A model generated the notes under the pieces. It worked only from the letters and a program-made list of their open reading frames with translations. It did no database searches and was not told the DNA's origin. The translations under genes and the position numbers were made by a program. Shown in pieces: positions 20,463 through 62,260 of a stretch of DNA of 64,000 nucleotides (its first letter is position 1; each line of letters begins with the position of its first letter). This stretch comes from Streptomyces antibioticus (GTDB lineage: Bacteria; Actinomycetota; Actinomycetes; Streptomycetales; Streptomycetaceae): the NCBI RefSeq assembly GCF_001514065.1, contig NZ_KQ948427.1:62001-126000 (forward strand), in the 5' to 3' direction.

Positions 20463-22103
20463 ATGTACGCAGATCTGCTCTTCACCGGCGGCCCCGTCCT
20501 CACCCCCGAGGGCCGCACCGCGACCGCGGTGGCCGTCAGCGGCGGCCGCATCACCGCCGTAGGACGGGACGAGGTCCTGGACCTGCGCGGGCCGCGGACC
20601 GAAGTGGTCGACCTCGCCGGGCGGTTGCTGCTGCCGGGCTTCCAGGACGCGCATGTGCACCCGGTGCCGGCCGGCCTCGAACTGACGCAGTGCGATCTCA
20701 CCGGCACGAAGACCGCCGCGGAGACCGTCGCCACCGTGCGCGCCTACGCCGACGCGCATCCCGAGCGGGCGTGGATCACCGGCGGCGGCTGGTCCATGGA
20801 GGCCTTCGAGGGCGGCACGCCGACGAAGGAGCTGCTCGACGCGGTCGTCCCCGACCGGCCCGTGTACCTGCCCAACCGCGACCATCACGGCGCCTGGGTC
20901 AACAGCCGCGCCCTCGAACTGGCCGGTGTCACCCGCGACACGCCCGACCCGGCCGACGGACGCATCGAGCGGGACGCCTCGGGCTCGGGCGAGTCGAGCG
21001 GCACCCTCCAGGAAGGGGCGATGCAGCTCGTCGGACGCCTCGCCCCCGCGGCCACCGCGGCCGATCGGCTGGCCGCCCTGTTGCACGCCCAGCGCCATCT
21101 GCACGCGCTCGGCATCACGGCCTGGCAGGACGCGCTCATCGGGGACTTCCTCGGCATGGACGACCCCGCGGAGGCGTATCTGACGGCGGCCCGGGACGGT
21201 TCGCTGACCGCGCGGGTCGTCGGCGCCCTGTGGTGGGACCGGGAGCGCGGGGCCGAGCAGATCCCCGAACTCGTCGAGAGGCGGGCCGCGTTGAGCCACG
21301 GCCGGTTCCGGGCGGGCACGGTCAAGCTGATGCTGGACGGGGTCGCCGAGACCGGGACGGCGGCGCTGCTCGACCCGTACCTGGACCGGTGCGGCTGCGC
21401 CACCGCCAACCGTGGCACCAGCTTCATCGACCCCGGTCAACTCCCCAAGTACGTCACCGAGTTGGACGCGCTCGGCTTCCAGTGCCACTTCCACGCCCTG
21501 GGCGACCGTGCCGTACGCGACGCGCTGGACGCGATCGGAGCCGCGCGCACCGCGAACGGACAGCGCGACACGCGGCCCCACCTGGCACATCTTCAGGTCG
21601 TCCACCCCGACGACGTACCGCGGTTCGCCGCACTCGGCGCCACCGCGAACATCCAGCCGCTGTGGGCGGCGCACGAGCCGCAGATGGACGAGCTGACCAT
21701 CCCCTTCCTGGGGCCCGAACGGGCCGCGTGGCAGTACCCGTTCGGTGCGCTGCTGCGGTCCGGCGCCCGGCTCGCGGCGGGCAGTGACTGGCCGGTGAGC
21801 AGCCCCGATCCACTGGCGGGCATCCATGTCGCGGTCAACCGGCGGGCGCCGGACGAGGACGGCGCGCCGGTGTTCCTGCCCGCCGAACGCATCGCTCTCA
21901 CCGAGGCGTTGACGGCGTACACCGCGGGTTCGGCGTATGTGAACCATCTCGACGACACCGGGGAGGTGCGCGCGGGGGCGCTGGCGGACCTGGTCGTGCT
22001 GGACCGCGACCCGTTCGACATTCCGTCCGCGGAGATCGCGAACACGCGCGTGGCGCTGACGTACGTCGGGGGCGCGCGAGTATACGCAGCTCAAGGGGCA
22101 TGA
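20463..22103 (+). CDS. Metal-dependent amidohydrolase (YtcJ/amidohydrolase 3 family)
   Basis: 546 residues. Metal site LPGFQDAHVHPVPAG (HxH), the second-strand FHALGDRAVRDALDAI and the final AAGSDWPVSSPDPLAGI with its Asp are the hallmarks of YtcJ-like hydrolases. N- and C-terminal beta-sandwich pieces are present (YADLLFTGGPVLTPEG; GALADLVVLDRDPF). It hydrolyses an unknown amide or related bond. Cytoplasmic. Follows the APC permease, probably as one operon. Confidence 0.9.
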   Translation: MYADLLFTGGPVLTPEGRTATAVAVSGGRITAVGRDEVLDLRGPRTEVVDLAGRLLLPGFQDAHVHPVPAGLELTQCDLTGTKTAAETVATVRAYADAHPERAWITGGGWSMEAFEGGTPTKELLDAVVPDRPVYLPNRDHHGAWVNSRALELAGVTRDTPDPADGRIERDASGSGESSGTLQEGAMQLVGRLAPAATAADRLAALLHAQRHLHALGITAWQDALIGDFLGMDDPAEAYLTAARDGSLTARVVGALWWDRERGAEQIPELVERRAALSHGRFRAGTVKLMLDGVAETGTAALLDPYLDRCGCATANRGTSFIDPGQLPKYVTELDALGFQCHFHALGDRAVRDALDAIGAARTANGQRDTRPHLAHLQVVHPDDVPRFAALGATANIQPLWAAHEPQMDELTIPFLGPERAAWQYPFGALLRSGARLAAGSDWPVSSPDPLAGIHVAVNRRAPDEDGAPVFLPAERIALTEALTAYTAGSAYVNHLDDTGEVRAGALADLVVLDRDPFDIPSAEIANTRVALTYVGGARVYAAQGA

Positions 22104-22134
22104 GCAGTAACGGAGATCACGGTCGGGTCACGGC

Positions 22135-22147
22135 GTAGATCATCTAC
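22135..22147. promoter_or_regulatory. 13-bp perfect palindrome
   Basis: GTAGATCATCTAC (odd dyad) lies between the amidohydrolase gene and the DDxxD protein gene, 140 bp upstream of the latter. It could be a small operator. No regulator can be named. Confidence 0.35.
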
Positions 22148-22213
22148 TCTCTGGGAAGTCTCGTTCCGCTTCTCGATTCAACTTTCGCGCCACGAAGGCG
22201 AGTTCGAGTGCAT

Positions 22214-22248
22214 GGGCGGTCTCCCCCTGGACCGCCCAGTCCCAGGGG
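22214..22248 (+). promoter_or_regulatory. Overlapping alternative hairpins in the leader of the DDxxD protein gene
   Basis: Stem A pairs GGGCGGTC (22214-22221) with GACCGCCC (22230-22237). Stem B pairs CCCCTGG (22224-22230) with CCAGGGG (22242-22248). They cannot form together. They sit about 40-70 bp before the start codon, so a switching leader is conceivable, but in such GC-rich DNA chance stems are common. Confidence 0.3.
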
Positions 22249-22286
22249 TGGGGGGTTTCTGCGCGCCGTCTCCCGAAAGGAACCAC

Positions 22287-23993
22287 ATGCCTCAGGCCGT
22301 CACGTCCGACCTGCCCTCCGACGCCCCCACCGGCCACCACCAGTCCACGGAGGCGGCTGCCGCTCTGATCCGCCTCCTGACGCAGCACATCAAGGGGCTC
22401 ACCGAGCGGCACCGAAGTTCCCAGACCTCCGTACACCAGCGATTGGACGAGCTCCGCTCCCCCCAGGGCGGGTCCGCGCTGCGGCTTGAGGGAGCCCTCC
22501 GATCGGCGCGGCCCGCTTACCTGCCCCCCGACGAGCAGGGCCTCGCCCGGCTGCGGCAGCTGGACGCCGGTCTGCGGGTGATAGAGGCCGCCTTCCCCCA
22601 GGTCCGCACCGACGTCGAGATCTGCCGGCTGACCTGCACGATGCTGGAAGGCGCCTGGCGCAGCCGGGCACAGACCCCGCCGCGCGAGGAGGAGCAGGCG
22701 GCGGACTGCGACTGCGCTCTGTGCGGCCGGCTGCCCACACCTCCCGTCCGCACCCTGGGCGACTACGACTGGCGGCACAGCGCCGGCCGTCCGCTCACCG
22801 TCAAGACCTGGCCCTACCGCCGGGAACTCGACAGCGTCCTGACCGGTGGCTGGTCCTGGACCCGGCAGATGAACGACCTGGAGCACGATCTCGGCCACCG
22901 GCACCGCTACGAGGACGACATCCTCGTCTTCCACGAGTACAAACGCGTCATCGACACCATCGACACCAGCCGGCTCACCCAGCTCATCGAGGACCGCCTG
23001 GCCGAGAACTTCAGCACGAACACGGCACGGGCCCTGGTCGCCGGCCTGTTCGCGGCTCACAAGCGGGCCGTCGACGAGTACTGGCTCCAGCAGCACGGCG
23101 CGGGCGACGTCACGCTGCCCCAGTCCAACCCACTGAGCCACAGCACCTATTCGGCGCTCCAGATGATGGACTGCCTGTTCTGGCACGTCGCTCCCGACAC
23201 CGAGCTCTGGCAGGAGGAGAACCTCGCCTCGCTGCTGCTGTGCCGCGTCATCGACGACATGGCCGACGTCCGGGCCGACGCCCTCACCGGCGAGATCAGC
23301 AACTTCTGGCTCGCCGACCTGCCCACCCACACCAAGGCCCTCTACGGCGCCAGTGCCATCGCCCTCGTCAAGTACGGCTGCGCGCCCGAGGCGCACGAAC
23401 CGATGTGGAACACCTGGCTGATGACCACGACCATCGTGTGGATGGGGCTCACCGGCCGCCACGCCCTGTGGTTCGACGGCATCACCGAGGGCCTCCCGCC
23501 CGCCGAGGCCTGTCCGCTGTGCGATCTGCAGCCCAACCCGTGCACCGGCATCCTCACCGACGGCACCGAGCTGACCATCGCACCGCGGGCGACCGTACCG
23601 GCGCTGAGCGCCCGGGCCGCCGAGCTGTCCGCGCGGTGCAGGGACTGGCACCCGCAGGCCTGGGCCCTGTTCGACGCCGAGCTGCACGCCTTCGAGGCCG
23701 TGCACGGACCCTGGTCCGGCGACGTCGACAACGCGTGGGAGATCCTGCGCCGCACCTACATAGCCGGGGTGGAGTCCTCCGTGGCCGCGCCGTCCCCGGG
23801 CCGGGCCCGTGACGTCCAGGTGGACGCCGGCGTGGTCGGGGCCGAGAGGTTCCACGCCCTGCACGACCCGCGGACCGGCAGGGAGGACATCGCGCTGCTG
23901 GCGTACATGTTCGCCTGCGCGCATCCGCATTTCCTGTGGAACGCCATGGGATACGTGCCCACGGACGTGGCCGGGGACTGGCTCGACGGCTGA
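22287..23993 (+). CDS. Unrecognised 568-residue protein with DDxxD motif, convergent to the conservon
   Basis: I do not recognise the family. The protein looks soluble and mainly helical, rich in Trp, His and Asp. Two Cys clusters are visible: CDCALC (141-146) and CPLCDLQPNPC (409-419). Residues 317-330 read LLCRVIDDMADVRA, containing DDMAD, which matches the DDxxD pattern of class I isoprenoid synthases; another acidic/His stretch is NDLEHDLGHRHRYEDD (196-211). No signal peptide or membrane segment. ATG 22287 follows GAAAGGAA. It converges on the conservon P450 across a strong terminator; position suggests a shared pathway but this is unproven. Confidence 0.7.
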   Translation: MPQAVTSDLPSDAPTGHHQSTEAAAALIRLLTQHIKGLTERHRSSQTSVHQRLDELRSPQGGSALRLEGALRSARPAYLPPDEQGLARLRQLDAGLRVIEAAFPQVRTDVEICRLTCTMLEGAWRSRAQTPPREEEQAADCDCALCGRLPTPPVRTLGDYDWRHSAGRPLTVKTWPYRRELDSVLTGGWSWTRQMNDLEHDLGHRHRYEDDILVFHEYKRVIDTIDTSRLTQLIEDRLAENFSTNTARALVAGLFAAHKRAVDEYWLQQHGAGDVTLPQSNPLSHSTYSALQMMDCLFWHVAPDTELWQEENLASLLLCRVIDDMADVRADALTGEISNFWLADLPTHTKALYGASAIALVKYGCAPEAHEPMWNTWLMTTTIVWMGLTGRHALWFDGITEGLPPAEACPLCDLQPNPCTGILTDGTELTIAPRATVPALSARAAELSARCRDWHPQAWALFDAELHAFEAVHGPWSGDVDNAWEILRRTYIAGVESSVAAPSPGRARDVQVDAGVVGAERFHALHDPRTGREDIALLAYMFACAHPHFLWNAMGYVPTDVAGDWLDG

Positions 23994-24000
23994 TCGCGCA

Positions 24001-24048
24001 GACACCGCCGCCGCCCGGGCCGAACTCCTGGCCCGGGCGGCGGCGGTG
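24001..24048. terminator. Strong bidirectional hairpin between convergent genes
   Basis: A perfect 19-bp stem pairs 24003-24021 (beginning CACCGCCGCCGCCCGGG) with 24030-24048 around an 8-nt loop. It lies between the stop of the DDxxD protein gene and the stop of the P450 gene. There is no U tract, so it may act as a GC-rich actinomycete-type terminator or an RNA 3' stabiliser in both directions. Confidence 0.7.
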
Positions 24049-24051
24049 GTG

Positions 24052-25302
24052 TCAGACCGAGAACGCGACCGGCAGGCTGTCGAGCCGGGACTCCCAGGTG
24101 GAGGCGGTCGAGGAGAGCTCCTCCGGCGGCACGGCCAGCCGCAGGCCCGGCAGCCGGTGCAGCAGGACGTCGACACCGATCTCGATGATGGACTGGCCGA
24201 TGCTCTGTCCCGGGCACTCGTGCGGTCCGGAGCTGAACGCCAGGTGCGACTGGTTGCCCTGCACGGTGACGGCCGCGTCGGGCCGTACCTCCGGGTCGAC
24301 GTTGCCGGCGGCCAGACCCAGGATCAGCAGTTCGCCCTCCTGGATGTGGTGGCCGCCCAGTTCCAGGTCGGAGGCGGCGAACCGGCCCGGCAGCACGGAC
24401 AGCGGCGGGGTGTCCCACATGACCTCCTCCACCACGGAGGAGATGGTCAACTGCCCACTGACCAGGCCCGACAGCCGGCCGGCGTCGGTGAGGACCATTT
24501 GCAGCACCCGCGCCAGCAGGTTGCTGGTGGTGGTGTGCGCGGCGATCAGCACCAGACGCAGATGGCTGACGACCTCGTCGTGGTCGAGGCCGGCCGGGTG
24601 CTGGATGAGGGCCGTGGCGAAGTCGGAGCCCGGCTCGGCCCGCTTGCGCTCGGCGAGTTCGGAGAGGATCTGCATGATCCTGCCGTTGTGCTCCAGCGCA
24701 CCCTCGCCGCCCTTGAGGACCTGCGCGCACGACTCGACCAGACGCCGCCCTTCCGCCATGGGAAGGCCCAGGATCCGGGTGAGCACGAGCATCGGCAGGT
24801 ACTCGGCGTAGTCGGCGACCAGGTCGGCGCGCCCGGTGTCGGCGAACGCGTCGATCTGCTTGTTCGCGAAGAACGTGGCATGGCGCCGCACCCCGCGGCT
24901 GGACGCCGCGAGCAGTCCGTCGGTGACCGCGCCGCGCAGCCGGCGGTGCGGTTCGCCGTCCTGGGAGATGCAGTCGGGCCGCCAGCCGATCATCGGGATC
25001 AGCGGATGCGTCTCCGGGATGTGTCCCTCCCGCCAGTCCCGCCAGATCCGTGCGTCCCGGCTGAACTGCCGCGGGTTGTCGAGCACGCGCCGGTTGTCCC
25101 GGTAGCCGAGGACCAGCCACGCGGGCACGTCGCCCTCCAGCAGCACGGGCGCGACCGAACCGTGCTCCTTGCGCAGCCGCTCGTAGATCCCCTGCGGATC
25201 GGTCGCCGCCTCCGGCCCGTACAGCCGCGCGACATCGGCTCCGCCGTGGGCGACGGGGCAGCCGCGCGGAGTGTCGGCGCCGTTTAAGGGCTGATCGGTC
25301 AT
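24052..25302 (-). CDS. cvnE: Conservon cytochrome P450 (CvnE, CYP157-like) lacking the ExxR arginine
   Basis: 416 residues. The heme loop is normal (FSSGPHECPGQ, thiolate Cys363) and the I-helix has AAHTTTSN (254-261). The K-helix reads VEEVMWDTPP: Trp296 stands where the Arg of ExxR should be. As far as I know, CYP157 members found in Streptomyces conservons also lack this Arg, which supports the assignment. The ATG overlaps the stop of cvnD (ATGA), so it is translationally coupled as the last gene of cvnABCDE. Substrate unknown. Confidence 0.88.
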   Translation of the reverse strand: MTDQPLNGADTPRGCPVAHGGADVARLYGPEAATDPQGIYERLRKEHGSVAPVLLEGDVPAWLVLGYRDNRRVLDNPRQFSRDARIWRDWREGHIPETHPLIPMIGWRPDCISQDGEPHRRLRGAVTDGLLAASSRGVRRHATFFANKQIDAFADTGRADLVADYAEYLPMLVLTRILGLPMAEGRRLVESCAQVLKGGEGALEHNGRIMQILSELAERKRAEPGSDFATALIQHPAGLDHDEVVSHLRLVLIAAHTTTSNLLARVLQMVLTDAGRLSGLVSGQLTISSVVEEVMWDTPPLSVLPGRFAASDLELGGHHIQEGELLILGLAAGNVDPEVRPDAAVTVQGNQSHLAFSSGPHECPGQSIGQSIIEIGVDVLLHRLPGLRLAVPPEELSSTASTWESRLDSLPVAFSV

Positions 25303-25904
25303 CGGGACTCCAGAGCGACGGCTGAGCGGTCCTTCAAGTGACGTATCAGGGTGACCAGCACGTCCCGGCTCGATTCCCGGTCGCGGGCGTCGCAGGCCAC
25401 GACCGGGATGTGCTCGGGGATGTCGAGGGCGTCGCGGATCTCCTCGACCGGGTAGTCCTTGGAGTCCGGGAAGACGTTGAGGGCGACGACGAAGGGGACG
25501 TTCTGCCGCTCCATCTCCTCGATCGCCCGGAAGCTGGAGGCGAGCCTGCGGGTGTCCACCAGCACGACCGCGCCGAGCGCCCCCTTGAACAGCCCGTTCC
25601 ACAGGAACCAGAACCGCTCCTGGCCGGGGGTGCCGAACAGGTACAGCATCAGGCTGTCGTTGAGGCCGATCTTGCCGAAGTCCAGGCTGACGGTGGTCTC
25701 CGTCTTCTCCGCGACGCCGATCAGGTGGTCGACGTCGGCGCTGGCCTGGGTGAGGGTCTCCTCGGTGGTCAGCGGCTTGATGTCGCTGACCGAGCGGACC
25801 ATCGTGGTCTTCCCGGTGCCGAAGCCGCCGGCGATCATCACCTTCACCGAGCGGGTGCCCTCGTCACCCGGCCCGCCGGGGTGGTCAAAGCCTTTCAAGT
25901 CCAC
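25299..25904 (-). CDS. cvnD: Conservon small GTPase-like protein CvnD
   Basis: 201 residues. P-loop GGFGTGKTT (26-34), switch-like region ASADVDHLIGVAEKTETTVSLDFG, and FGTPGQERFWFLW, which resembles the DxxG region of Ras-like proteins. NVFPDSKDYP replaces the canonical NKxD, as in MglA/conservon ATP-GTP-binding proteins. The GTG 25904 has GAGGAGG upstream and overlaps the end of cvnC by 20 bp. It would act as the signalling switch of a membrane-bound complex with CvnA-C. Confidence 0.92.
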   Translation of the reverse strand: MDLKGFDHPGGPGDEGTRSVKVMIAGGFGTGKTTMVRSVSDIKPLTTEETLTQASADVDHLIGVAEKTETTVSLDFGKIGLNDSLMLYLFGTPGQERFWFLWNGLFKGALGAVVLVDTRRLASSFRAIEEMERQNVPFVVALNVFPDSKDYPVEEIRDALDIPEHIPVVACDARDRESSRDVLVTLIRHLKDRSAVALESR

Positions 25905-26256
25905 TGAGTACCTCCTCAAGCAGCGCGAGGTCGGGCCCGCGGCGGGCGTCGTGCGCCGGGATGGGGTCACGGGCTTCCACGCGGTCTGCCTCCAGCAGGT
26001 CCGCCAGCAGCACCGCGAGAATGTTGAACGGCAGTCCGAGGTGGGCGCCGAGTTCGGCGACCGACAGCGGATCGCGGCAGCGCCGGAGGATCTCCTCGTG
26101 CTCGTGCTGCATCCCCGGGGCGGGGGCGGTGCGGGAGACGATGAGGGTCGCCACGTCGAGACTCGACGCCGAACCGCCCGGTCCGCTACGTCCTCCGGTG
26201 AGGACGTAGTAACGCTCGAGACCGGACGGGTCCGTGGGCCGGCGGGGAGCACTCAT
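25885..26256 (-). CDS. cvnC: Conservon DUF742 protein CvnC
   Basis: 123 residues. DUF742: RYYVLTGGR near the N-terminus and a winged-helix-like C-terminal half (LSVAELGAHLGLPFNILAVLL). Its ATG overlaps the stop of cvnB (ATGA), and its own end overlaps cvnD, so translation is tightly coupled. It is thought to bridge the roadblock protein and the GTPase in conservon complexes. Confidence 0.92.
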   Translation of the reverse strand: MSAPRRPTDPSGLERYYVLTGGRSGPGGSASSLDVATLIVSRTAPAPGMQHEHEEILRRCRDPLSVAELGAHLGLPFNILAVLLADLLEADRVEARDPIPAHDARRGPDLALLEEVLSGLERL

Positions 26257-26672
26257 GCAGAGTGCTCCTCCAGCCGCGGAGTGGTGCCGAGGAGCTCGCC
26301 CATCCTGCGGGCCAGATCCCTCATCTGGTGCCCGAGCAGGCCCTGGTCGAGGCCTTCCCGGGCGAGCACGCCGAGATACGTCTCCACGCCCGCGCGGACG
26401 ACGAAGAGGTGGCCGCCGTCGACCTCGATCATCGCCAGCCGCAACTGACCCAGCTGTCCGCCGGGCCGGGCGAACTGCTCCGCGACCGGCTGGGCCAGCG
26501 CCTGAAGGCCGGCCACCACCGCCGCGAAGCGGTCCACGTCGTCGGGGTCCTCGGCGCCGAAAGAGGTGATGGCCTTGCCGTCGCTGGAGGCCACGAGGGC
26601 GAAACGGATCTCCGGGATGGACTCCACGAGATCACGGAGCGCCCAGCTCACGTCGGTTCCCTGTTGCGTCAT
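26253..26672 (-). CDS. cvnB: Conservon roadblock/LC7 protein CvnB
   Basis: 139 residues, roadblock/LC7 fold: SWALRDLVESIPEIRFALVASSDGKAI-like start and LRLAMIEVDGGHLFVVRAG in the central strands. MglB-like regulators of small GTPases share this fold, so it probably controls the nucleotide cycle of CvnD. Six bp separate it from cvnA. Confidence 0.93.
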   Translation of the reverse strand: MTQQGTDVSWALRDLVESIPEIRFALVASSDGKAITSFGAEDPDDVDRFAAVVAGLQALAQPVAEQFARPGGQLGQLRLAMIEVDGGHLFVVRAGVETYLGVLAREGLDQGLLGHQMRDLARRMGELLGTTPRLEEHSA

Positions 26673-26678
26673 GTCGAC

Positions 26679-28403
26679 TCAGTCGCTCTCTTCAGTGCGG
26701 TGCTCGGTGGACTCGCGGCCGTCGGCCGAGGCGTCGTTGCCCCGGGCCGGGTCGGACTCGCGTCCGGCGGTGGCGAAGGCGGCCAGGCCGGCGAAGGACG
26801 CGTCCGGCGGGACGGCGGAGACGGCCGACGTCTCCTCCTGGGTCCGCTCGGTGCGCTCGCCCGGCTGGTACCGGGCCTCCTCGCTCCGCCTGCTTCTTCG
26901 CCGGGGCAGTCCGCCGGGCGTGGTCTCCGCGGTCTCGCCGACTTCGACGGTCTCCGCCGCAACGGCGGGGGGCGTCGGGGTCTCCTCCCTGACGGGGGCC
27001 GGGGCGGAGGCCTGCACCGCCGGTGCCGCCGTGGGCAGCGGGCTGAAGTACTTGTGCGGGACCACCACGACCACCGAGGTGCCGAGCCAGGGCGAGTCCG
27101 CGAAGGTGACGCGGATGCCGTAGCGCCGGGCGAGGATGCCGACGACCCGGAGGCCGATGGTGGCGTCCTCGGAGACACCGCCGAGTCCGGGACCGGAGCC
27201 GGTGCCGGCGAGGGCCTGCTCGGCCTCGCGCTTCTTCTCCTCGCTCAGGCCCTTGCCGGAGTCCTGGATCTCGATGCCGACGCCGTTCGGCACCTCCTTG
27301 CCGGAGACGAGCACCGGCTCGGTGGGCGGCGAGTAGCGGGCCGCGTTGTCGAGGAGGTGGGCGAAGATCAGCGTGAGGTGGTCCACCAGGCCGCCGTCGA
27401 CGCCGAGTTCGGGCAACTGGCGTACGTCGATCCGGTGGAAGTCCTTGATCCGGCCGATGCCGCCGCGGACCACGCTGAGCAGCCGCTGCGGTTCCTGCCA
27501 CTGCCGGCCGGGCCGGTCCGAGCCGCCCAGCACGCCGATGCTGGCGGCGAGACAGTCGGCGGGGCCGATCTCCTGGTCGAGTTCCATGAGTCCCCGCGCC
27601 ACGGACGGCAGCCGGCCGTGCTCGCCCTGCATCTCGTGCAGTCGGCCGCGCAGCTTGCTGGTCAGCACGTGGATGCGGTTGCCGATACCGATGACGGCCT
27701 GCTCGGCGGCGGTGGACCGGTCGAGCTCGCGCTCGACGCCGATGAGCGCGGTCCGCAGGACCTTGCGCAGCTCGGTCTGGAGCTCCGAACTCACCTTGGC
27801 GCACTGGTTGGTGGCCGGCAGCAGGTCGTCGACGGCGTCACCGGCGCGCAGTTGCTCCAGTGCCTCGGGCAGCTGCTCGTCGGCGAGCCGGGCGACGGCG
27901 GAGAGCTGGTGGGCCAGCTGCTCCTGCCAGACCTCGGCCTGGTCGGCGAGCTGGGCCTCGTACGACGTGGCCTGGTCGGTCAGCCGGGCCTCGTAGGCGT
28001 GGGCCTGTTCGGCGAGCCGCTCCTCATAACCGGCGACCTGCTCGGCGAGGCGCTCCTCGTAGCCCGCGGCCTGGTCGGCGAGCCGGGCGTCCTGAGCGGC
28101 GTGCTCGGCGGCGAACTTCCGCTCCAGGCCCGCGACATGCTGCTGCCACTGCTGGGAGTGCTCGGCCTGTGCGCTGCGGAAGCCGCTCTCGGCCCGGTGG
28201 AGCTGCTTGCGGGTGCGGACCAGGAGCCGGACGCACACCGAGCTCGCCGCGGTGGCGGCGGCGCCGGCGACGGCCGCGGTTATTCGCTCCGAGCTCATGA
28301 ACGTGGCGGCAACCGTCCCGCCTCCTAAGGCCAGCGGCATCAGCCACCAGCTGTACCAGGCGACCGGGGCCCGCGCCGCCGGCGGCGGAGTGGCGAGTTC
28401 CAT
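26679..28403 (-). CDS. cvnA: Conservon histidine-kinase-like membrane protein CvnA with hendecad coiled coil
   Basis: 574 residues from the ATG at 28403, chosen because GAAGG lies 6 bp before it; the ATG at 28409 abuts that site. Two membrane helices (about 14-36 and 41-62) leave almost no external loop. Residues 110-164 contain five 11-residue repeats of the form DQAxxYEERLA, a continuous coiled coil. The ATPase domain has LDNAARYSPP (351-360), DSGKG (381-385) and GLRVVGILARRYGI. The H-box equivalent reads ELDQEIG (274-280), with Gln277 where related kinases have His, so autophosphorylation is doubtful. The C-terminal 120 residues are disordered. Confidence 0.9.
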   Translation of the reverse strand: MELATPPPAARAPVAWYSWWLMPLALGGGTVAATFMSSERITAAVAGAAATAASSVCVRLLVRTRKQLHRAESGFRSAQAEHSQQWQQHVAGLERKFAAEHAAQDARLADQAAGYEERLAEQVAGYEERLAEQAHAYEARLTDQATSYEAQLADQAEVWQEQLAHQLSAVARLADEQLPEALEQLRAGDAVDDLLPATNQCAKVSSELQTELRKVLRTALIGVERELDRSTAAEQAVIGIGNRIHVLTSKLRGRLHEMQGEHGRLPSVARGLMELDQEIGPADCLAASIGVLGGSDRPGRQWQEPQRLLSVVRGGIGRIKDFHRIDVRQLPELGVDGGLVDHLTLIFAHLLDNAARYSPPTEPVLVSGKEVPNGVGIEIQDSGKGLSEEKKREAEQALAGTGSGPGLGGVSEDATIGLRVVGILARRYGIRVTFADSPWLGTSVVVVVPHKYFSPLPTAAPAVQASAPAPVREETPTPPAVAAETVEVGETAETTPGGLPRRRSRRSEEARYQPGERTERTQEETSAVSAVPPDASFAGLAAFATAGRESDPARGNDASADGRESTEHRTEESD

Positions 28404-28752
28404 CTGCATCCTTCGAGGCAACACGATCGAACAGGGGGATGTGCAAGGGGGGAGCGCACTGTCCAATGCGCACCGCGAGATGACCGGTAACAACCGGATC
28501 AACTCGCGGCGCCGCAGGGGAGCTTATCGGGTTTGAACCCGAAAGGATCAACTCCCGGGACCCGCCGGAGGTGAGGGTTCCGTCACTGTCCGCCAGTATC
28601 GAACAGTCGACAAATGCCCATACTGACCAGCACAGTTGCGAAAACGGACGTTGTCATCGGGTGACAGATCGGCACTCCGCGCCTGTCCGTCGCTGATAAG
28701 CCCTGACGTATTACTGATGGGTATCGTCGCCCTCGTGTCGAAGAGAGCCGCC
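28404..28752. promoter_or_regulatory. Divergent control region between conservon and PucR gene
   Basis: 349 bp without a gene. A dyad TCGGGTTTGAACCCGA spans 28527-28542. A 14-bp direct repeat GGATCAACTCGCGG / GGATCAACTCCCGG occurs at 28496-28509 and 28545-28558, flanking that dyad. A smaller dyad CCGGT-AACA-ACCGG precedes them. These are probable binding sites controlling the conservon. Confidence 0.55.
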
Positions 28753-30006
28753 ATGGTGACCGATGACGGGGGCGGTCCGTTCGCGGAACTCCCCCCGGAT
28801 CTTCACCAACACCTCAGACCGTTCTTCGCCGACATCACCGAGGAGGTCGTACGGGCGATCAGAACCGAGATCCCCGAGTACGCGCGCCCTGCGGACGACA
28901 CGTACATGCAGGGGGTGCACCGGGGTGTGGACCACGCGCTGCGGGGGTTCCTGGAGCGGATGGCGAAACCGGACAGTGACTGGGAGCCGGTGCAGGAGAC
29001 GTACCAGCGCATCGGACGCGGGGAGGCGGAGGAAGGGCGCAGCCTCGACTCGTTCCAGTCGGCGCTCCGGCTCGGTGCGCGCGTGACGTGGCGCCGGGTG
29101 AACGCGCTCGTGAACGCCGATCTGCTGCCGCGCAACGTGCTGGGCGCGTTCGGTGAGGCGCTGTTCCTGCACCTGGACGAGATGGCCGCGGCGACGACGG
29201 CCGGGTACACCGAGGCCCGGCTGCACGCCGCCGGCGAGCTCCAGCAGCGCCGGATGCGCCTGATCGACCTGCTGACCGCCGACCCACCGGCATCGGCGGA
29301 GGCCATCGCGGAACTGGCACACAGCGCACGCTGGCCGCTGCCGAAGTCCCTGGCGGTGCTGGCGATCGACTACGCCCCGCGGACACCACCGCCGACCGCG
29401 CGTGGTGCCCTGGGGCGGCCGGCGTTGCCCGTGCGGGGCCCCATCGTGCCGCCGGAGTTTCTCGCGCGGTTCGATGTGCAGCCCGCCGTGCTGGTGGTGC
29501 CCGACCCCGAGGGGCCCGGGCGGGCGCGGGCGGTGGCCGGGGCGTTGCAGGGGCTGCGGGCCGCGATGGGGCCGACGGTGTCGCTCCAGGAGGGCGCGCG
29601 GTCGTTGCGCTGGGCGTCCGAGGCGCTGGAGCTGGTGCGCCGGGGCGTGCTGTGGGACGCCGAAATGGTGCGCTGCCAGGACCACTTGGCCACGCTTCTG
29701 CTGCTGCGCGACGACGCCCTGGTCGACGCCATGGCCGAACGCCGGCTGCGCCCGCTGGAGCAGGTTCGGCCACCGCAGCGCGAGCGCCTCGCGGAGACGC
29801 TGCTCAGCTGGCTCAGCTCCGGCCACAACGCCAACGAGGTGGCCGTCCGGCTCGCGGTGCACCCGCAGACGGTGCGCTACCGCATGCGCCAGCTGGACGA
29901 GCTGTTCGGGGACCAACTCCAGGACCCCGCGGCCCAGTTCGAGATGATGCTGGCGCTGCGGGCGCTGCAACTGCGCCGGGGCGTCAGAGGGGCCGGCGCA
30001 GAGTGA
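28753..30006 (+). CDS. PucR-type transcriptional regulator
   Basis: 417 residues. The C-terminus has the PucR helix-turn-helix: SSGHNANEVAVRLAVHPQTV followed by RYRMRQLDELFGDQLQDP. The N-terminal half is helical (RsbR-like LHLDEMAAATTAGYTEARLH) with a GGDEF-like CdaR region in between. ATG 28753 follows GAAGAGAG; an upstream ATG at 28717 is in frame but has no ribosome site. Divergent from cvnA. Its last codons overlap the convergent GNAT gene by 23 bp. Confidence 0.85.
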   Translation: MVTDDGGGPFAELPPDLHQHLRPFFADITEEVVRAIRTEIPEYARPADDTYMQGVHRGVDHALRGFLERMAKPDSDWEPVQETYQRIGRGEAEEGRSLDSFQSALRLGARVTWRRVNALVNADLLPRNVLGAFGEALFLHLDEMAAATTAGYTEARLHAAGELQQRRMRLIDLLTADPPASAEAIAELAHSARWPLPKSLAVLAIDYAPRTPPPTARGALGRPALPVRGPIVPPEFLARFDVQPAVLVVPDPEGPGRARAVAGALQGLRAAMGPTVSLQEGARSLRWASEALELVRRGVLWDAEMVRCQDHLATLLLLRDDALVDAMAERRLRPLEQVRPPQRERLAETLLSWLSSGHNANEVAVRLAVHPQTVRYRMRQLDELFGDQLQDPAAQFEMMLALRALQLRRGVRGAGAE

Positions 30007-61678: not shown

Positions 61679-62260
61679 GTGACCACGACCAGCCCCGACC
61701 CCGATCTCGTCTTCCCGTTCATCGGGGGCCGCCCCTGCCTGAACTTCGTCGCCACGCTCGGCAAACGGCACGCCACGCCCAAGGAGCGGCTGCCGGACAC
61801 CGCCGCCCTGGCGCGCTGGCTGACCCAGGCGGAGCTGGCCGCGGGCGAGGAGCCGGTGCGGGTGACCTCACGGGATCTCGCGGACGCCCGGCTGCTGCGC
61901 GAGGCCGTCCACCGTTTCGTGCGGGCCGCCATGGCGGGGCAGGGGCCGGACGCGGCCGATGTCGGGCTGATCAACGCCACGGCGGCGCGGCCGGACCTGG
62001 CACCCCAGTGGGGCGCGGTGCGCTGGACGGCGCGGCATCCCGCGCGGGCGGCCCTGGCCACCGTCGCGCGGGATGCCGTACTGCTGGCGAGCGGGCCGCT
62101 GATGGCGCGGGTCAAGGAGTGTGAGAACCCGGAGTGTTCCCTGCTGTTCCTCGACGACTCCCAGGCCCGGCGGCGGCGTTGGTGCTCGATGGAGCGGTGC
62201 GGCAACCTCGCGAAGATCGCCGGCTACCGGTCCCGCAGCCGGGCCGTGGGCAGCGCCTGA
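61679..62260 (+). CDS. CGNR zinc-finger transcriptional regulator
   Basis: 193 residues. N-terminal ABATE domain (FIGGRPCLNFVATLG, typical), C-terminal CGNR zinc finger: ECENPECSLLFLDDSQ and RRWCSMERCGNLAK with four Cys. DNA-binding regulator; ligand unknown. GTG 61679 has no ribosome site but a -10 box close by, so the transcript is probably leaderless. Likely target is the divergent quinone reductase. Confidence 0.9.
   Translation: MTTTSPDPDLVFPFIGGRPCLNFVATLGKRHATPKERLPDTAALARWLTQAELAAGEEPVRVTSRDLADARLLREAVHRFVRAAMAGQGPDAADVGLINATAARPDLAPQWGAVRWTARHPARAALATVARDAVLLASGPLMARVKECENPECSLLFLDDSQARRRRWCSMERCGNLAKIAGYRSRSRAVGSA

Follow-up and report, generated by a model that had tools for sequence, protein, structure and literature searches.

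The closest described relatives of the locus considered here are the conservons cvn9-12 of Streptomyces coelicolor, which share with it the order of cvnA-D, a CvnA without a sensory domain and a cytochrome P450 as the fifth gene. The accessory proteins CvnE and CvnF accompany CvnA proteins that lack sensory domains and have been proposed as sensory inputs or modulators, and what conservons respond to and what CvnE does are both given as unknown, in the accessible part of the recent account (PMC13343842, 2026). The P450s of the CYP157 type, with the motifs EVLW or EQSLW, have genes tied to conservons, according to the available portion of PMC3599690, which cites Rupasinghe 2006. Eudesmol synthase is counted as one of the ten main terpene synthases of Streptomyces in the sections available of PMC6604706. 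Here we describe a stretch of 64,000 nucleotides of Streptomyces antibioticus (assembly GCF_001514065.1, contig NZ_KQ948427.1, forward-strand positions 62,001 to 126,000; hereafter the window) in which a complete P450 conservon faces an orphan gene, X, standing where sister genomes have a predicted 7-epi-alpha-eudesmol synthase.

The conservon and its facing gene

An earlier note, made from this DNA sequence alone, had described a complete cvnA-E conservon facing a 568-residue DDxxD protein across a strong hairpin, and the arrangement was confirmed at these positions:

22063..22341, plus strand: synthase-derived 5' region over the start of X (blastn and alignment)
22287-23993, plus strand: X, ATG to TGA, 568 aa, orphan DDxxD protein
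24003..24048, no strand: hairpin between the convergent stop codons (folding energy against shuffles)
24052-25302, minus strand: cvnE, 416 aa, P450 with heme Cys and Trp at the ExxR Arg position
25299-25904, minus strand: cvnD, 201 aa from GTG, small GTPase, ATP_bind_1
25885-26256, minus strand: cvnC, 123 aa, DUF742
26253-26672, minus strand: cvnB, 139 aa, Roadblock/LC7
26679-28403, minus strand: cvnA, 574 aa, histidine-kinase-like, HATPase_c

The core order by which a conservon (AGPS) is recognised, a kinase-like protein followed by Roadblock, DUF742 and small GTPase proteins, is found here, as is the pairing of an accessory P450 with a sensor-less CvnA that is likewise used to recognise one: HATPase_c is the sole Pfam domain of CvnA above cut-off, with no sensory domain found, and the P450 domain of CvnE is above its cut-off. 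The genes are tightly packed, with overlaps of 4 nt (cvnB/cvnC and cvnD/cvnE) and 20 nt (cvnC/cvnD) and a gap of 6 nt between cvnA and cvnB. X and cvnE are convergent and 58 nt apart, and the stem of about 19-20 bp between them (-56.4 kcal/mol, z -7.0, equalled by 0 of 200 shuffles) is probably a terminator serving both genes. A gene for a PucR-type (HTH_30) regulator lies at 28636-30006, divergent from cvnA.

X in the slot of a terpene synthase

An orthologue of cvnE (at least 68% identity, the next best match being 54%) occurs in 48 of 246 Streptomyces genomes, the counts of orthologues referring to this one genus; 21 of the 48 carry X, 27 carry 7-epi-alpha-eudesmol synthase and none carries both. 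Searched genome-wide at E 1e-100 or better, the eudesmol synthase was present in 27 of the 246 genomes, exactly those that have the cvnE orthologue and not X. It is the next gene past cvnE in 24 of these 27 and lies 3-5 kb away in two (L140 and L149), and in the 27th genome the contig breaks off at cvnE, with the synthase located on a separate contig. All five slot synthases scanned belong to PF19086, and three of four exceed the curated cut-off of NF041564, the family of 7-epi-alpha-eudesmol synthase, the fourth reaching 673 of 680 bits. By gene order, X occupies the slot of a predicted canonical class I terpene synthase, and within the 246-genome sample X and this putative synthase exclude one another. 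In G576, a genome outside that sample, no synthase was seen beside cvnE within the stretch read. Degeneration may be setting in along the branch of the eudesmol synthase, as has been suggested in the part available of PMC10509563, and the losses of the synthase found here agree with this.

X also has the synthase's upstream region. The 5' region of a slot synthase (query TS148, from -224 to +55 around the ATG) matches the window on the same strand at 82% over 283 nt (E 3e-70). When six such queries were compared with 45 X loci, namely those of the 41 genomes described below and four from named relatives, the region was found immediately before X and in the same orientation in 41 loci, with best E values per locus from 5e-26 to 8e-95; the start positions obtained with the query TS137, whose gene is shorter, are shifted and were not used. 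Two lone copies of X without an adjoining conservon, L097 and L101, also carry the region, and among the 45 loci blastn found none before X in L058, L059, L104 and L105. Going by the matches listed, 25 loci have an alignment that passes the synthase ATG but does not reach X, 10 have one that does not extend as far as the ATG, and in the remaining six (the window, L026, L038, L050, L055 and L096) the ATG and first codons of the synthase are the start of X itself. Longer remnants of the synthase are kept in L098 (residues 1-45) and L101 (residues 1-117, 42% identical). These alignments indicate that X replaced the coding region of the synthase and that the upstream region, which presumably drives X as its promoter, was retained.

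In a tree of 91 CvnE rows, from which nine identical rows of 100 had been removed and in which the three loci with X on the cvnA side were labelled apart and L138 was labelled by hand as a synthase locus (its synthase being on another contig), the X loci are nested among synthase loci. Parsimony gives three changes of label, two of which are forced by well-supported branches, and these may reflect several gains of X, or a single gain after which the synthase returned more than once; under either history the slot is reconstructed as having changed hands more than once.

Paralogous P450 conservons

A terpene synthase directly faces 14 of 20 sampled paralogous P450 conservons, whose cvnE and cvnA products are 46-55% and 31-41% identical to those of the window over the aligned parts. 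This sample was not random, as it consists of the 16 best-scoring loci of the band below 60% and four picked lower down, the synthase being present in 14 of the former and in none of the latter; an additional paralogue, L260, likewise faces a terpene synthase. For ten of the paralogue synthases the nearest NCBIfam families were isoafricanol synthase (one), family 2 encapsulin cargo cyclase (five) and selinadiene synthase (three), all nine below the curated cut-offs, and L244 matched none at E 1e-40. The synthase family has four matches in the 10 Mb of the window's genome, so that, from abundance alone, synthases should rarely be neighbours by chance. The pairing of P450 conservons with predicted terpene synthases is thus recurrent and extends beyond the orthologous loci. 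Three of the loci without a synthase (L254, L256 and L257) share another neighbour, a protein of about 448 aa encoded on the cvnE strand and of GH4 type by eye.

Distribution of X and its linkage to the conservon

X was found in a single genus, Streptomyces, with 21 of 246 genomes in the genus sample, 27 of 394 genomes and one of 17 genera in the family sample, and 2 of 246 genomes, both already counted, in the class sample. In the order sample 28 of 293 genomes, all of one genus, matched X, 27 of them being those of the family sample; the weakest match of this sample, in G208, was rejected as a chance local match. The named relatives, 14 loci, are all from Streptomyces, the nearest from S. 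justiciae (91%), and no relative was found on the plasmids or the viral contigs searched. The genus and family samples overlap by seven genomes and yield 41 distinct genomes with X, all of whose neighbourhoods were read.

The linkage between X and the conservon proved to be conserved, cvnA-E adjoining X in 38 of the 41 genomes. X is directly convergent with cvnE in 34 and is separated from it by one P450 gene in L053, and in L058, L059 and L104 a divergent X (55-58%) lies upstream of cvnA and is transcribed away from it. Wide occurrence of X without any conservon, which the earlier note had named as the result that would overturn its proposal, was tested and not found: X stands without an adjoining conservon in three of the 41 genomes (L097, L101 and L105), and two of these, L097 and L101, have the orthologous conservon elsewhere (cvnE 84% and 82%). 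The orthologous conservon P450 is thereby present in 40 of the 41 genomes with X, and these observations support X and the conservon being a unit kept together by evolution. The third of these loci (L105, 8812-12950) has the most divergent X (51%), no conservon nearby and a different P450 divergent from X.

Protein X

The earlier note could not place X in a family, and it stays without one, as neither Pfam nor NCBIfam gave any match at E up to 1, a search of PDB sequences with the single sequence found no relative, and a profile of X against the PDB gave one match, at E 2, to an unrelated protein. No typical membrane helix was found, the most hydrophobic 19-residue mean being 1.1. For the X of the window, the ratios of nonsynonymous to synonymous substitution (dN/dS, Nei-Gojobori) are 0.24-0.33 against five homologues that are 75-91% identical to it and 0.49 against one that is 57% identical; the 15 remaining pairs are mostly at 0.3-0.6, with a maximum of 0.75. 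X is a conserved gene, the values fitting purifying selection. The invariant cysteines of X form the patterns CxCxxC and CxxCx6C. Residues 140-154 and 406-420 contain similar CxLC motifs with invariant cysteines (a weak self-match), which could mark an internal repeat or else a metal site.

The DDxxD of X reads DDMAD (residues 323-327); chance alone would give about 0.2 such motifs in a protein composed like X, and the motif taken alone means little as to function. The longer DDxxDxxxD, a pattern noticed post hoc, has a chance expectation of 0.015. D324 and D327 are invariant among the homologues, and D323 is replaced by N (NDxxD) in the divergent L058 and L059. An NDxxxD (residues 196-201) precedes the DDxxD, and the aspartate motifs comprise one DDxxDxxxD (DDMxDxRxD, 323-331) and one partial DDILxxxxxKR (210-220), for which an IPPS-like reading may be suggested. 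The features of a trans-prenyl diphosphate synthase are not seen in X, which has no profile match and no second full DDxxD; nor does X match NF041564. Profile alignments of X with terpene and prenyl diphosphate synthases (hhalign) were negative, as was the positive control, a synthase against a prenyl diphosphate synthase, so that this comparison is uninformative.

A few loci connect X with P450s of sesquiterpene type. The P450s beside X in L101 and between X and cvnE in L053 are both nearest to the albaflavenone monooxygenase / pentalenene oxygenase type, with 325 bits in L101 and 321 in L053 against a curated cut-off of 700, which marks nearest kin only. In L053 (10176-14953), besides the intervening P450, the final 69 residues of X occur a second time next to cvnE, and this layout may be left over from a recombination by which a cassette of X and the P450 came in. 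In L088 (17610-18962) a P450 with 92% identity to that of L101 lies past the cvnA end of an X-type locus, and in L161 (7535-10269) a eudesmol synthase stands between the CvnE P450 and a divergent P450 that is 68% identical to that of L101. A terpenoid product of X is favoured by the slot, the shared upstream region and the P450s of L101 and L053, and weakly by the aspartate motifs, so that we lean towards X being an isoprenoid enzyme. Of the suggestion in the earlier note that X makes a terpenoid, the link to terpenoids has held up, through the synthase slot and the upstream region; for X being itself a terpene synthase, the motif alone is weak evidence, and neither the profiles, which are negative, nor the structure models gave support.

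CvnE, a P450-like protein

In all 91 aligned CvnE sequences a Trp takes the position of the ExxR arginine (EEVMW in the window), and the heme cysteine is kept in all 90 rows listed from that alignment. The orthologous proteins have the motif E-x-M/L-W, and 21 paralogues are of the type EQVLW, with the Glu one place earlier, like CYP157C1 (EQSLW). A retained heme Cys with no ExxR arginine is the combination that characterises CYP157, and the CvnE of the window has it. With the arginine missing, a role as sensor or modulator suits CvnE no less than that of an enzyme modifying a product, and the idea of the earlier note that the P450 simply modifies the product of X has become doubtful. That CvnE is a ligand sensor seems to us an even proposition; since CvnE has been proposed as a sensory input, the terpenoid gene facing it would be a natural source of the ligand.

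A candidate signalling-metabolism unit and its alternatives

The reading that we prefer, with a probability of roughly 0.5, is that of a two-part signalling-metabolism unit, a P450-type conservon together with a terpenoid-forming gene whose product CvnE senses. The first part would comprise the CvnA kinase, CvnB, CvnC, the CvnD GTPase and the P450-like CvnE without its ExxR arginine, and the second the convergent terpenoid-forming gene, which before X was the 7-epi-alpha-eudesmol synthase in the main group of loci. In this lineage the unrelated gene X replaced the coding region of this synthase, with the upstream region, and in the window also the start codon, being kept. X would most likely convert an isoprenyl diphosphate to another terpenoid, which CvnE would bind and perhaps slowly oxidise; the state of CvnE would then gate the sensor-less CvnA, and CvnA would switch CvnD through CvnB and CvnC. 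The gene content, the slot swap, the inherited upstream region, the mutual exclusion within the 246 genomes, the terpene synthases recurring at paralogous P450 conservons and the Trp of CvnE are shown by the sequences themselves, from which we infer the promoter role of the upstream region, the enzymatic activity of X, the binding of a ligand by CvnE and the direction of signalling. A bolder form, in which X founds a new class of terpene enzymes not recognisable by sequence, CvnE proteins are terpenoid receptors derived from P450s and a bacterial G-protein pathway senses a self-made volatile, its ligand changed by the swap of synthases, is tentative and somewhat unlikely.

Several observations weigh against the preferred reading. 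X lies on the cvnA side, without the synthase upstream region, in L058, L059 and L104, and the L105 genome, with an X of 51%, has only paralogous conservons and no orthologous conservon P450. Six of the 20 paralogous P450 conservons have no synthase, and P450s of sesquiterpene type occur in the stretches read of only three X loci (L053, L088 and L101). G449, outside the 246-genome sample, has the synthase beside cvnE and X elsewhere, so that the two are not strict alternatives in every genome. The scores of X against hidden Markov models of terpene and prenyl diphosphate synthases do not exceed what shuffled X obtains, no terpene synthase profile of Pfam or NCBIfam matches it, no canonical NSE motif was seen after the DDxxD when the conserved columns were read by eye, and the first Asp of the DDxxD is Asn in L058 and L059. 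AlphaFold models from alignments of 14 and 15 sequences were mostly helical and unusable, with a predicted local distance difference test score of 41.5 for both (Foldseek with the first of these low-confidence models gave eight meaningless matches, none at E 0.001). Finally, CvnE showed no sign of having co-adapted with its partner: just one of its columns tells both X clades apart from the synthase group, and this column fails in a third X lineage, L041.

The view of the earlier note, in which the terpenoid comes from X or the synthase, CvnE acts as an ordinary tailoring oxygenase and the conservon merely regulates the pair, can draw on the kept heme cysteine and on the known clustering of Streptomyces terpene synthases with P450s that modify their products (PMC6604706, in its available part); we hold it to be unlikely, given that all 91 CvnE lack the K-helix arginine, that cvnE is part of the conservon operon and runs convergently to X, and that the sesquiterpene-type P450, where there is one (L053 and L161), is extra to cvnE. 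Slightly less probable to us is that X handles or makes a non-terpenoid, or is a protein partner of the conservon, and took the slot as a different input to the same CvnE. X has no detectable homology to isoprenoid enzymes, and its different arrangement in L058, L059 and L104 would suit this explanation, as would its invariant CxCxxC and CxxCx6C cysteines, which are not known as a feature of class I synthases; yet the slot holds terpene synthases in the orthologous and in many paralogous conservons, and X adjoins sesquiterpene-type P450s in L053 and L101. X might also be a passenger that entered the synthase gene by insertion and then spread through recombination, doing no work with the conservon, as the synthase 5' remnants before X, carried even by the lone copies L097 and L101, would allow. 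With dN/dS at 0.24-0.33 for most pairs that include the window, the company of the orthologous conservon P450 in all but one of the 41 genomes and the tie of the divergent X to the conservon in a second arrangement too, this last explanation is highly improbable.

Significance and comparison with known systems

To our knowledge, the role of most Streptomyces sesquiterpenes is unclear. The recurrent pairing gives P450 conservons and terpene synthases each a concrete, testable partner, and an orphan that has displaced a known synthase while keeping its upstream region offers a lead to an unrecognised family of terpenoid enzymes, one that mining for motifs and profiles would miss. The locus suggests that a terpene-like molecule feeds conservon signalling. 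No report of the pairing or of the swap for X was found in the literature on conservons with terpenes, sesquiterpenes and prenyltransferases, a search that left subscription journals mostly outside; a word search of the text of PMC6604706 returned nothing for neighbourhood, synteny, context or histidine kinase, and the accessible parts of PMC8510531, PMC6408508, PMC6428758 and PMC13367870 contain nothing bearing on the pairing.

Unlike cvn9-12 as presented in the available parts of PMC13343842 and PMC8510531, the window has a gene of terpenoid type facing cvnE. The 7-epi-alpha-eudesmol synthase (NF041564) of sister genomes has the same slot and a homologous upstream region, X sharing with it this region and the first codons only and being otherwise unrelated to it by sequence. 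CvnE resembles the CYP157 P450s in the Trp for the ExxR arginine and in the link to a conservon, a likeness in these two features. The conservon-linked indole prenyltransferase clusters likewise place a conservon beside genes that attach isoprenoids, and differ from the window in having an indole prenyltransferase, in some cases with a tryptophanase, and another gene order; their authors suggest a role in signalling, and, as far as the available part of the paper goes (PMC3617294), they are the one precedent found in print of isoprenoid chemistry linked to a conservon.

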